NCBI GenBank assembly: GCA_018333865.1 | Contig: JAGXSE010000065.1 | Span: 174,794-238,793 of the forward strand | DNA: 64,000 nucleotides | Origin: Syntrophomonadaceae bacterium | Lineage (GTDB): Bacteria; Bacillota; PH28-bin88 | Reading direction: 5' to 3' | Shown: in pieces, positions 14,089-27,235 of the stretch | Position numbering within the stretch: position 1 is the stretch's first letter | How the letters are laid out: each line of letters starts with the position of its first letter | Position numbers and translations under genes: made by a program | Notes under the pieces: generated by a model | Databases searched by the model: none | What the model was told of the DNA's origin: nothing | The model's input: the letters and a program-made list of their open reading frames with translations, nothing else

Positions 14089-14106
14089 TCCAGTAGTTGA
14101 ATAGAA

Positions 14107-14222
14107 TAGCCTTCGGGGACAGGTGTAATTCCGTACCGGCGGTTAAAGCCCGCGAACCGCATTTGCGGTTGATCCGGTGGAAATCCGGGGCCGACAGTAA
14201 TAGTCTGGATGAGAGAAGGATA
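14107..14222 (+). ncRNA. FMN riboswitch (RFN element)
   Basis: The conserved RFN pattern is clear: CTTCGGGG near the 5' end, ACCGGCGGTTAAAGCCCGCGA in two conserved blocks, a variable hairpin GAACCGCATTTGCGGTT, then GATCCGGTG, GGGGCCGACAGT and the closing GGATGAGAGAAGGA. The first and last segments pair to close the multi-helix junction. It precedes ribD and is followed by a terminator hairpin. FMN binding is expected to favour termination and shut down riboflavin synthesis. Confidence 0.95.
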
Positions 14223-14257
14223 AGCTTGCGATACTAATCGCTTGGCTTATTTTGGCT

Positions 14258-23131: not shown

Positions 23132-23374
23132 GTGGCCGGTGGACAAAGAAGCAATCAGGTGCTGGTTCCGCAAGCAAGACCTGCTATGGACAAATTTAAA
23201 TGGGAAACTGCTGCTGCAGTAGGTATCAATATTCCCCAGGGCGGTTACGGTGGCGACATCCCGTCCAAAATGTGGGGAGCAGTCGGTGGCAATATGGTGC
23301 GGACCATGATCCAGGCTTATGAACAAAGTTTGGCTGGACAGCCTGCCCAAGTTACCACCAAACCAACTCCTTAA
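23132..23374 (+). CDS. alpha/beta-type small acid-soluble spore protein
   Basis: This 80-residue protein contains VLVPQARPAMDKFKWE, then VGINIPQGGYGGDIPSK and MVRTMIQAYEQ, the two conserved helices and central turn of alpha/beta SASPs. These proteins coat spore DNA and protect it from UV and peroxide. The GTG at 23132 has AGAGGTGA about 7 bases before it; an open frame upstream is ignored because the sigma-G promoter lies inside it. The segment at the usual GPR cleavage site reads WETA rather than the common EIA/EFA. The GPR protease gene is convergent next door. Confidence 0.92.
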   Translation: MAGGQRSNQVLVPQARPAMDKFKWETAAAVGINIPQGGYGGDIPSKMWGAVGGNMVRTMIQAYEQSLAGQPAQVTTKPTP

Positions 23375-23401: not shown

Positions 23402-23436
23402 TATGGGAGGCCGGAACCGGCCTCCCATATTTATTG
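23402..23436. terminator. bidirectional hairpin between SASP and gpr
   Basis: A perfect 13-bp inverted repeat TATGGGAGGCCGG / CCGGCCTCCCATA (23402-23414, 23417-23429) is followed on the + strand by TTTATTG. It ends the SASP transcript and probably also the convergent gpr transcript. Confidence 0.7.
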
Positions 23437-24408
23437 CAGATAGGTGGCAAAGGTATCTGGTTCAACAGCCGGGTGCAACCCCTGGTTAATCCCCGCTGCT
23501 AAGACCCTGGCGGTGTTTTTAATCAGGTCATCAATTTCCTTGGGAGTTACTGTCAGCTGGCCCCCAAAGGGGACCAGGATCTGTCCTGCTGTTTCCTGCA
23601 TCAGATTGGGTTCTAAATACGTTGCCATTTGAGGGGCTTTTTGTCTGAGTTGCTCCATGGCCTCGAAGACAATTACAGCTGCGTGGACAACTGTGGGCAC
23701 TCCAATGGCAATTACTGGGATTCCCATGGCCCGATGGCTGATTTCAGCCCGCTGATTACCTACTCCTGATCCTGGAGCAATACCGCTATCGGCAATTTGA
23801 ATGGTAGTAGAAATCCTCTCCAGGTTCTGGGCAGCCAGAGCATCAATGGCAATAATCGCTTGCGGTTTTAATCTCTCTGCTATCCCTTGAATGATTTCCG
23901 CTGTTTCAATACCTGTAATGCCCAGCACCCCCGGGGCGATGGCGCTGACTGGCCTTAAGCCTCCGATCAGCTCCTCCGGGGCATATTGGTGCAGGTGCCT
24001 GGTAACAAGGCAATGCTCAATTACCCTTGGCCCCAAAGCATCAGGGGTGGCCTGCCAGTTGCCTAACCCTACCAGGAGAACCAGGTTGTCCGGGCTGATG
24101 TTCCATTTTAGCATCAGCTGGCTCAGTTTTTGCCCCATAATGTTGCTGATTTCCTTGTGGGCTAGCCGGTTATTAACCCTTAACTCCGGAGCATCAATTG
24201 TGATATATGTCCCTTGTGCCCGGCCCATCATTCTTTCCCCGATGGCGTCCATGATAGTGATGGTGGTTACTTCCCCGCCAGGAAAGCTTTCTTTTTCTTC
24301 CCGCACACCGGGGATTTCCTGCTGTGCTTGCCCCCGCAAAAGCTCATGGGCTTCTAAAGCTAAATCCAGATTAACACCCGATAGCCGGAAAAAATCCATT
24401 CTGTTCAT
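23431..24408 (-). CDS. gpr: GPR germination endopeptidase
   Basis: This protein of about 325 residues matches the spore protease that degrades SASPs at germination. Recognisable family stretches include TTITIMDAIGERMMGR, VLLVGLGNWQATPDALGP, VSAIAPGVLGITGIET, IAIDALAAQNLERI and IADSGIAPGSGVGNQR. It is made as a zymogen whose short N-terminal propeptide is self-cleaved. AAGGAGG lies at 24421-24427, so ATG 24408 (12 bases) or TTG 24411 (9 bases) is the start; TTG 24417 is too close. It faces the SASP gene, its substrate. Confidence 0.94.
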   Translation of the reverse strand: MNRMDFFRLSGVNLDLALEAHELLRGQAQQEIPGVREEKESFPGGEVTTITIMDAIGERMMGRAQGTYITIDAPELRVNNRLAHKEISNIMGQKLSQLMLKWNISPDNLVLLVGLGNWQATPDALGPRVIEHCLVTRHLHQYAPEELIGGLRPVSAIAPGVLGITGIETAEIIQGIAERLKPQAIIAIDALAAQNLERISTTIQIADSGIAPGSGVGNQRAEISHRAMGIPVIAIGVPTVVHAAVIVFEAMEQLRQKAPQMATYLEPNLMQETAGQILVPFGGQLTVTPKEIDDLIKNTARVLAAGINQGLHPAVEPDTFATYLQ

Positions 24409-24603
24409 CAATTCCAAGAACCTCCTTAGCTAAACTATTGTCCTATCAGTCCTTTATTATTAGTCACCAATAAAAGGGTGATTATACACAGAATGTCTAA
24501 TGAAACAAAGATTGAGCGAACCATATTTGCGGACAACAGCAGTAAGGTTTAAATCTCCAGTGCCCGGGGCTGCGAAAGCAGAACAGTGTTAAAATCGGAG
24601 TCG

Positions 24604-24634
24604 AAAAAAAACCGCCAGGTGTTAGCTTGCGGTT
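24604..24634 (-). terminator. intrinsic terminator of the reverse-strand small RNA
   Basis: AACCGC (24634-24629) pairs with GCGGTT (24615-24610) on the reverse strand and a run of T follows (8 T in total at 24611-24604, part of it in the stem). Confidence 0.75.
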
Positions 24635-24748
24635 TAAATCTTGCCGGCAGTGGTTAGCTGCCGGCCAGGGAGAGGAGAAACCGGAGGAAGAGCTTATGGG
24701 GGAGGGTTATTCAAAAATAACCGCATAGCTCTTCATGAATTACTTCAC
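24604..24748 (-). ncRNA. candidate sporulation small RNA (CsfG-like) between gpr and rsmD
   Basis: On the reverse strand this non-coding stretch contains an 11-bp hairpin (24734-24724 with 24698-24687, one bulge) enclosing a perfect GGTTATT/AATAACC hairpin, then a perfect 8-bp GCCGGCAG/CTGCCGGC hairpin (24665-24643), then an intrinsic terminator. Unpaired stretches are pyrimidine-rich: CCCTCCCCC (24706-24698) and CCTCCGGTTTCTCC (from 24687), able in principle to pair with Shine-Dalgarno sequences. A promoter matching forespore sigma factors lies upstream. From memory, the conserved sporulation RNA CsfG of B. subtilis lies next to the rsmD homologue ylbH and is controlled by sigma-F and sigma-G. 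Identity is inferred from structure and context. Confidence 0.55.
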
Positions 24749-24753
24749 ACCCA

Positions 24754-24783
24754 TATTATTAACCAGGTTGATCATGCTTATAC
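24754..24783 (-). promoter_or_regulatory. forespore (sigma-F/sigma-G-type) promoter of the small RNA
   Basis: On the reverse strand GTATA (24783-24779) is followed after 18 bases by AATAATA (24760-24754), six of seven matches to the sigma-G -10 CATWHTA. The same bases read as GTATA, 15 bases, GTTAATAATA match nine of ten positions of the sigma-F -10 GGNNANAHTR. Transcription would begin near 24748. The consensus sequences are recalled from B. subtilis work. Confidence 0.55.
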
Positions 24784-24858: not shown

Positions 24859-24867
24859 TGCTATAAT
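24859..24867 (+). promoter_or_regulatory. extended -10 promoter for rsmD
   Basis: TGCTATAAT (TGn plus perfect TATAAT) lies 42 bases before the rsmD start; no good -35 is visible. The 490 bases between the gpr and rsmD start codons otherwise hold the reverse-strand small RNA, its promoter and the gpr leader, in which CTGC-GAAA-GCAG forms a small tetraloop hairpin near 24575. Confidence 0.6.
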
Positions 24868-24908: not shown

Positions 24909-25460
24909 ATGAGGGTGATTGCCGGAATTGCCAGAGGCTCCAGGCTGGCTGCCCCCCGGGGTATGGCCACCAGGCCGACAGCAGATCGGGTAAAGGAGGC
25001 TGTTTTTAACATCTTGGGTTCCCGGGTGCCGGAGGCTAGTTTTTTGGATCTGTTTGCCGGCTCAGGTGCTATGGGGATTGAGGCATTAAGCCGGGGCGCA
25101 GCTTGTGCTGTTTTTGTGGAATCGGCAGGTCAAGCTGTTAAAACCCTGCGCCAGAACCTGGAGCGCACTGGGCTGGCTGAAGGAGCAAGGGTCTTGAACA
25201 CTGACTACATCAAGGCTATCCATCTTTTAACAGCTGAAAATGCCTCTTTTAACCTGGCCTACATCGATCCTCCGTACCATCAGGGGTTAGCCACTAAGGC
25301 TTTGGACTGGGTGGGGAAAAATAAACTGCTGGCTCTGGGAGGGTTAGCCCTGGCAGAAATTGCCCGCAAAGAAGAGCTGGCGGAAGAGGTTGGGCCGCTG
25401 GGAAAAATTCGGGTAGCAACCTATGGTGACACTGCTATTCATATTTATCAGATGGCATGA
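24909..25460 (+). CDS. rsmD: 16S rRNA (guanine-N2)-methyltransferase RsmD
   Basis: This 183-residue SAM-dependent enzyme methylates a guanine of 16S rRNA (G966 in E. coli). It begins MRVIAGIARGSRL, contains TRPTADRVKEAVFNIL, the SAM-binding FLDLFAGSGAMGIEALSRGA and the catalytic YIDPPY motif. The ATG at 24909 follows CAGGTGAT; a longer open frame upstream covers the promoter. In B. subtilis its homologue ylbH is followed by coaD, which is absent here. Confidence 0.94.
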   Translation: MRVIAGIARGSRLAAPRGMATRPTADRVKEAVFNILGSRVPEASFLDLFAGSGAMGIEALSRGAACAVFVESAGQAVKTLRQNLERTGLAEGARVLNTDYIKAIHLLTAENASFNLAYIDPPYHQGLATKALDWVGKNKLLALGGLALAEIARKEELAEEVGPLGKIRVATYGDTAIHIYQMA

Positions 25461-26014: not shown

Positions 26015-27235
26015 CTAATATTTTTTGCCAAAACAGAGTCTCTTCACATTTGCAATCAACCAGCTTCCCAGGACCAGGCAAAGAAGCAGTGCCAGGGACA
26101 TCCCCATTAATTGGAGGCTGACAAGTGCGCTGTTCCAAAATGCCCAAAAATTGTATGCCGGGAAGCTGATCTTATTGCTTATAGCGAGGACTACGGGCTG
26201 GGCATGAGTGCCAAGAAGGATCTGGGAAAGGGCACCGGCCAGGAGGCCGTGGGCAATCCTTGTTTTTACGAAGGTTTTCATCCCCAGGTCAGTTCCAGCG
26301 ATCATGCTGGCAACCTGGCTATGGACTGAAAGGCCACCCCATCCAAGGATGAAACTGATTGCCAGGACTTTTAGATTAAGGGGTGCATTTGCTTCTGCCA
26401 CCATTTTAGCGCCCATGGTCATTTCCACCAGTCCGCCGACGGCAGCAGTAATCAATTGAGGCGGAAAGCCCAGCATTTGCAGTGGCTTTGATAGGATCCA
26501 CGCAATTACCCCCAGGATGCCCGTCAGGCTGCAGACCTGAATGACAACTGAGAAGAGAATTATGTATCCGCCGATGAGTAAGAGGGTCTGAAAAGATCTT
26601 ATAACGGCCTCTGTGAGGAGATGACCAATGGCTTTTTGGTTGGCAGCTTGGGCTTTTGCCATCGCATGAAAGGCGTCAAGTAATAAAGAATGACTGATCC
26701 CTTTTGACCAGGTCTGTTTTTCCTGTTTCTTTGCTGCTATTCCCAGAACCATTCCCAGTGTCAGGTTGGCCAGGTAGTGGCTGCCCGCGATTAACACCCC
26801 CAATGAGGGGTCCTCCAGCATCCCCACTGCAATTGCCACCAGCATGAACAGGGGACTGGCGTTATTGGTGAAGGATAATAATCTCTCACCCTCAGCCTTG
26901 GTACATAAACCTTCTGCCCGCATTTTTGCGGTCAGCGCTGCTCCGATGGGGGCGCCAGATGTATAACCAATTACCATAATAAATGCCCCCCGGCCTGGCA
27001 CTCTGAACAAGGGCCGCATCAGCGGATCTAGCAGGACTCCCAAAAAGTCCACTACTCCTAAACCTCTTAAGATTTCTGAAAGAATAAAAAAAGGCAAGAG
27101 AGCTGGAAGCACAACGGTCCACCAGGCATTTAAACCCCGGAGGGACGCAGCAAAGATGTCTTTTGGATAAAATATAATCACGACCAGCATCCCTAGGGAT
27201 AAAATGAGCCAGAGCACGGTTTTTAAATTATTCAT
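26015..27235 (-). CDS. ylbJ: sporulation integral membrane protein YlbJ
   Basis: This 406-residue polytopic membrane protein has about eight hydrophobic segments and two nucleoside-transporter-gate-like halves (SGAPIGAALTAKMRAEG, FTNNASPLFMLVAIAVG and ILGWGGLSVHSQVASM). The pattern matches YlbJ, required for cortex formation in B. subtilis spores and expressed in the mother cell. It is encoded opposite to the flanking genes. The ATG has only a weak GAGG upstream. No confident sigma-E promoter was identified in its upstream region. Confidence 0.88.
   Translation of the reverse strand: MNNLKTVLWLILSLGMLVVIIFYPKDIFAASLRGLNAWWTVVLPALLPFFILSEILRGLGVVDFLGVLLDPLMRPLFRVPGRGAFIMVIGYTSGAPIGAALTAKMRAEGLCTKAEGERLLSFTNNASPLFMLVAIAVGMLEDPSLGVLIAGSHYLANLTLGMVLGIAAKKQEKQTWSKGISHSLLLDAFHAMAKAQAANQKAIGHLLTEAVIRSFQTLLLIGGYIILFSVVIQVCSLTGILGVIAWILSKPLQMLGFPPQLITAAVGGLVEMTMGAKMVAEANAPLNLKVLAISFILGWGGLSVHSQVASMIAGTDLGMKTFVKTRIAHGLLAGALSQILLGTHAQPVVLAISNKISFPAYNFWAFWNSALVSLQLMGMSLALLLCLVLGSWLIANVKRLCFGKKY

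Follow-up and report, generated by a model that had tools for sequence, protein, structure and literature searches.

What does the gap between gpr and rsmD encode? It lies at positions 24604-24783 of the window, by which we mean the whole 64,000-nucleotide stretch of DNA that was analysed, and its sequence and a comparison of relatives mark it as a candidate csfG locus with its RNA on the minus strand. The rsmD (ylbH) gene (24909-25460, plus strand; TIGR00095, 154 bits) is divergent from this RNA, while gpr, encoding the spore/germination protease (23431-24417, minus strand; TIGR01441, 370 bits; start probably at 24408 or 24411), lies downstream of it on the same strand. Adjoining gpr and convergent with it is an alpha/beta-type SASP gene (23132-23374, plus strand; PF00269, E 4e-23), SASPs being the kind of protein that GPR degrades. 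Near rsmD lies ylbJ, which encodes a sporulation membrane protein (26015-27235, minus strand; TIGR02871, 341 bits), an arrangement shared with B. subtilis. The genome carries hfq and a sigG match above the cut-off, plus other sigma factors of the same group. At Rfam gathering scores the sole match in the window was an FMN riboswitch at 14105-14224 (109.7 bits).

Judging from the sequence, the gap almost certainly encodes the small RNA CsfG, transcribed away from rsmD. The explanation that best accounts for the whole, which we put at roughly 90%, is a CsfG RNA that would be transcribed in the forespore and end at its own terminator; pairing of its pyrimidine-rich core with mRNAs is a proposed and much less certain part of it. 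To our knowledge, CsfG is a widely conserved forespore or sporulation RNA with no known target.

In the proposed scheme, forespore RNA polymerase carrying sigma-G, and perhaps sigma-F too, would transcribe csfG. The earlier note had pointed to GTATA and AATAATA on the minus strand as spaced like a sigma-G promoter, and this bore scrutiny: the -35 element GTATA (24779-24783) and the -10 element AATAATA (24754-24760; mostly CATAATA or CATACTA in relatives) are separated by 18 nt and score 11/12 against the sigma-G pattern. The pattern is kept among related loci: 117 of 144 score at least 10/12 on the RNA strand, a level reached by the other strand in 7 of 144 and by about 5% of shuffled sequences, and in 111 of these 117 the spacer is 17 or 18 nt. 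The near-agreement with the sigma-F pattern was checked by eye alone.

The predicted transcript is about 145 nt long (24604-24748, minus strand), its start being placed from the -10 element and its end from the U tract. Folding of 24740-24604 gave three hairpins at -42.9 kcal/mol (z = -4.0), a fold that just one of 200 shuffles matched or exceeded; for the whole 180 nt, promoter included, z was -2.1. Hairpin 1 (24735-24748; GUGAA/UUCAU), seen in the fold prediction and in relatives, takes the forms GUGAA/UUCAC, GUAAA/UUUAC and GGUAAAUCU/AGAUUUACC elsewhere. Hairpin 2 (24687-24734) is predicted to have an outer stem, GAAGAGCU/AGCUCUUC, an inner stem, GGUUAUU/AAUAACC, and a bulge, CUCCCCCAU. A pyrimidine linker (24668-24686) separates it from hairpin 3, and the last 11 nt of this linker (TCTCCTCTCCC) are mostly unpaired in the predicted folds of 128 loci. 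Hairpin 3 (24643-24665; GCCGGCAG/CUGCCGGC) keeps its pairing between relatives whose sequences are unrelated there. The transcript would be ended by its own intrinsic terminator (24604-24635), made of a hairpin at 24609-24635, AAACCGC...GCGGUUU, followed by UUUUU. A strict terminator scanner did not list it, probably because the stem has an internal mismatch. Of 128 loci, 112 have a terminator after the core on the RNA strand; 16 have one on the other strand, and the rate in shuffles is 2%. The string of hairpins and the strong minus-strand terminator described in the earlier note are thus borne out, as is the lack of coding potential, no reading frame being conserved on either strand across the related loci.

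Compared with shuffles, the 3' part of the RNA has a mean fold z of -5.6, and 95% of loci fall below -2. The median number of pairs in the first hairpin of this part is 10, compared with 7 for shuffles, and its arms are only 28% identical between loci, near chance. In sequence terms, then, this part retains its structure and is free to change its letters. Compensatory changes in relatives had been suggested as a check on the RNA: hairpin 3 kept its pairing as its sequence changed, and hairpin 2 showed no covariation within the window's type, since its sequence is nearly invariant there.

Comparison of relatives also defined a conserved core, CCCCATAAGCTCTTCCTCCGGTTTCTCCTCTCCC (24668-24701, minus strand). 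This core (CCCCAUAAGCUCUUCCUCCGGUUUCUCCUCUCCC) is nearly invariant, and in the window it is identical letter for letter to that of several distant relatives; the flanking hairpins vary in sequence yet still fold. Core positions 16-34 were selected by the search pattern in the named loci, and they are nearly invariant too among the relatives that a blastn search with the window recovered. In most loci the CCC portion of the core's 5' end is predicted to be unpaired. By simple motif rules, the 5' arm is of the Bacilli type in 67 loci and of the window's type in 13, with another or no clear arm in 48. The core thus persists with a different pairing partner or with none, which points to a sequence-specific function. 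The pyrimidine-rich loops and linkers that had been remarked on in this gap have a counterpart across spore formers, in which the pyrimidine-rich core recurs.

How widely does the element occur, and does it follow sporulation? By blastn it matched 37 of 61 genomes, the window's own included (38 entries with second copies counted), and in the order around G139 matches were found in 311 of 349 genomes. A 19-nt piece of the core, searched against 84,980 named species, hit at least 117 stretches, and among the matches listed all titles were Bacillota except two metagenome-assembled genomes labelled Acetobacteraceae and Desulfovibrio. These two carry the spore gene ylbJ, rsmD and csfG, and are probably mislabelled or contaminating Bacillota contigs. 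Of 155 loci, 141 have a recognised rsmD, which is divergent everywhere except in two; the remaining loci are often truncated by the end of the stretch. In a survey of 379 genomes of the phylum, the core (at most 2 mismatches in 22) was present in 162 and gpr in 318: 159 had both, 3 the core only, 159 gpr only and 58 neither, giving an odds ratio of 19 and p ~1e-12, a value to be taken as a guide only because related genomes are not independent. The three exceptions with the core only (G146, G223 and G254) are drafts. The element thus appears to be restricted to spore formers, and the core is absent from about half of the gpr-bearing genomes. A more sensitive profile raised the number of core-positive genomes from 162 to 176 only, suggesting that the core is either near its consensus or unrecognisable. 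One genome, G108, has two csfG-like copies, one beside an rsmD-sized gene and the other elsewhere with its own promoter-like site; an extra copy in G267 looks like a contig overlap. No integrase was recognised beside the extra copies in these two genomes within the stretch read.

Two IMG/VR phage contigs, L233 and L234, hold a folded CsfG-like element with 31 of the 34 core letters (L233, 5881-5989; L234, 1438-1550; z of -4.9 and -3.7, respectively). At three base pairs the two elements differ in both partners, which with two sequences is weak statistical evidence. The element directly follows a tyrosine integrase gene, of which the L233 match covers the C-terminal part only, and is flanked on both sides by GCGCACA repeats; the contigs also hold tail, endolysin and recombination genes. 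An integrase together with flanking repeats is the layout of an attachment site carrying part of a host gene, and the phage element is probably an attP with csfG as its counterpart; it may also be a functional RNA that has a terminator of its own. The finding points to csfG as a possible site of phage attachment. It is conceivable, though we lean against it, that temperate phages exploit CsfG, integrating at its ultraconserved core and using a promoter of their own to express a folded CsfG RNA that replaces the host's or acts as a decoy. If so, phages would gain a handle on sporulation. Among the genomes searched we found no lysogen with a phage at csfG, and two candidates for such a prophage (G569 and G661) were both ordinary csfG loci. 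A search of 50,697 phage records for a CsfG-like element gave no match, and no close relative of the phage integrase turned up in 349 genomes at E 1e-70, a limit so strict, and applied with no positive control, that this negative carries no weight.

For the host RNA, we propose that C-rich segments (CUCCCCCAU, UUCCUCC and UUUCUCCUCUCCC) would pair with Shine-Dalgarno sequences of mRNAs in the forespore, and that this pairing would block or alter translation, perhaps with the aid of Hfq. Read as its complement, the core gives GGAGG-8 nt-AUGGGG, much like a perfect translation start; a single RNA could thus mask a ribosome-binding site together with the start codon. A C-rich region is common to RoxS, FsrA and CsfG, and that of RoxS blocks the ppnKB ribosome-binding site (PMC4409812). 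By this analogy, we slightly favour Shine-Dalgarno pairing as the mechanism of the CsfG core. The core is predicted to be able to pair with ribosome-binding sites within the window. When the 67 sites there were ranked by duplex energy, SASP came 31st and gpr 49th, ranks that leave both unsupported as targets. A 13-nt perfect complement of the core occurs in this genome only at csfG itself and hardly elsewhere in 60 relatives, among which no long perfect complementary target is conserved. The pattern GGAGG-N6-9-AUGGGG has 7 sites in the genome, one of them csfG, close to the 4 of the reversed control, with no obvious sporulation gene among them.

The near-invariance of the core exceeds what Shine-Dalgarno pairing needs, which counts against that mechanism. 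The core might instead bind a conserved protein or ribosomal component, with CsfG acting as a sponge or decoy. A core that across the phylum is either nearly identical or undetectable would fit this, as would the want of a conserved long complementary target and the co-purification of CsfG with Hfq in B. subtilis (PMC3574147). Ribosomal RNA was considered as a partner, and 23S is absent from the assembly. We nevertheless regard a sponge or decoy as unlikely: the C-rich regions of RoxS have been shown to act by pairing (PMC4409812), and our analysis found no candidate partner.

Could the structured RNA instead be the 5' leader of gpr, with sigma-G transcription entering gpr and the structured part attenuating or otherwise regulating it? 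In 20 of 135 loci the gene lies downstream in the same orientation, and it follows csfG immediately in L083, L032, L114, L127 and L130, some of which have no clear terminator in between. In L083 gpr comes straight after the terminator; the hairpin between the two in L032 is without a U tract, and in such lineages read-through or a leader role is possible. Most loci, however, have no gpr nearby, and in the window the RNA is set apart from gpr by a terminator and about 190 nt, and gpr has a promoter-like site of its own, GTATA-N18-ACTAATA (10/12 by the same count, by eye). The distance and the separate promoter-like site argue for two units here, and the alternative that this region is merely a gpr leader, raised alongside the CsfG proposal, is improbable in the window.

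CsfG on the minus strand is also the reading that bears on Rfam, where a search had been proposed as a check. A permissive search of 521 bases around the element returned RF00516, the 'ylbH leader', as the top and only relevant match (24602-24738, plus strand, 28.8 bits, E 3e-4). The alignment spans the whole core but falls short of the gathering score of 50; the family is the same element on the other strand. Weak matches to anti-hemB, isrK, MIR5286 and ST7-AS1 were also below cut-off and were taken as chance. Seven of the Bacilli loci tested gave RF00516 matches of 60-117 bits, each time on the complement of the proposed RNA, and other window-type and short-type loci tested were below its gathering score as well; the window copy probably falls short because its 5' hairpin is unlike the Bacilli form. 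An Hfq study of B. subtilis saw no Northern signal from the ylbH-leader strand and reports that the reverse strand is CsfG (PMC3574147). In the window, the plus strand carries an extended -10 promoter-like site for rsmD, TGCTATAAT (24859-24867), which would place the start of the rsmD mRNA past the supposed leader; such sites are only moderately enriched across loci (perfect in 12 of 128; 1.8% in shuffles). A cis-regulatory rsmD leader on the plus strand, at one time described as an orphan riboswitch, is therefore very hard to credit, even though RF00516 is filed and matches on that strand and GGAGG-8 nt-ATG there resembles a ribosome-binding site, since promoters and terminators sit on the opposite strand across loci, the putative short reading frame ranges from 3 to 73 codons and is without ATG in 26 of 128, the window's rsmD site appears to lie downstream of the element and the corresponding B. 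subtilis strand gave no Northern signal. Both the strand and the type given for RF00516 appear to be wrong, the RNA being CsfG from the complementary strand, and our data support correcting the two.

The proposal that this gap holds CsfG is thus supported, as is the expectation of conservation in relatives, since promoter, core and terminator recur across loci of spore formers. The window element is a well-supported, ordinary member of a known and functionally open small RNA family, to which the comparative set adds a near-invariant core, a replaced 5' arm, recognisable architectures, and a link that is strict with rsmD and extends to spore genes. Like CsfG (S547) of Bacillus subtilis, it lies beside rsmD/ylbH on the divergent strand behind a forespore-type promoter, has a pyrimidine-rich conserved core, hairpins and a terminator, and occurs with sporulation genes. 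It differs in its 5' hairpin, GAAGAGCU-GGUUAUU...AAUAACC-CUCCCCCAU-AGCUCUUC rather than the Bacilli AACCGCGGAGAAGACUU arm, and in having gpr downstream, its host being a distant relative. With the 'ylbH leader' of RF00516 it has in common the genomic element, seen from the complementary strand; that family is filed as a cis-regulatory leader, on a strand disfavoured by both the comparison and the B. subtilis Northern. RoxS/RsaE and FsrA likewise have C-rich stretches, single-stranded in part, that are fit to pair with Shine-Dalgarno sequences, and differ from it in promoters, conditions and genomic location.
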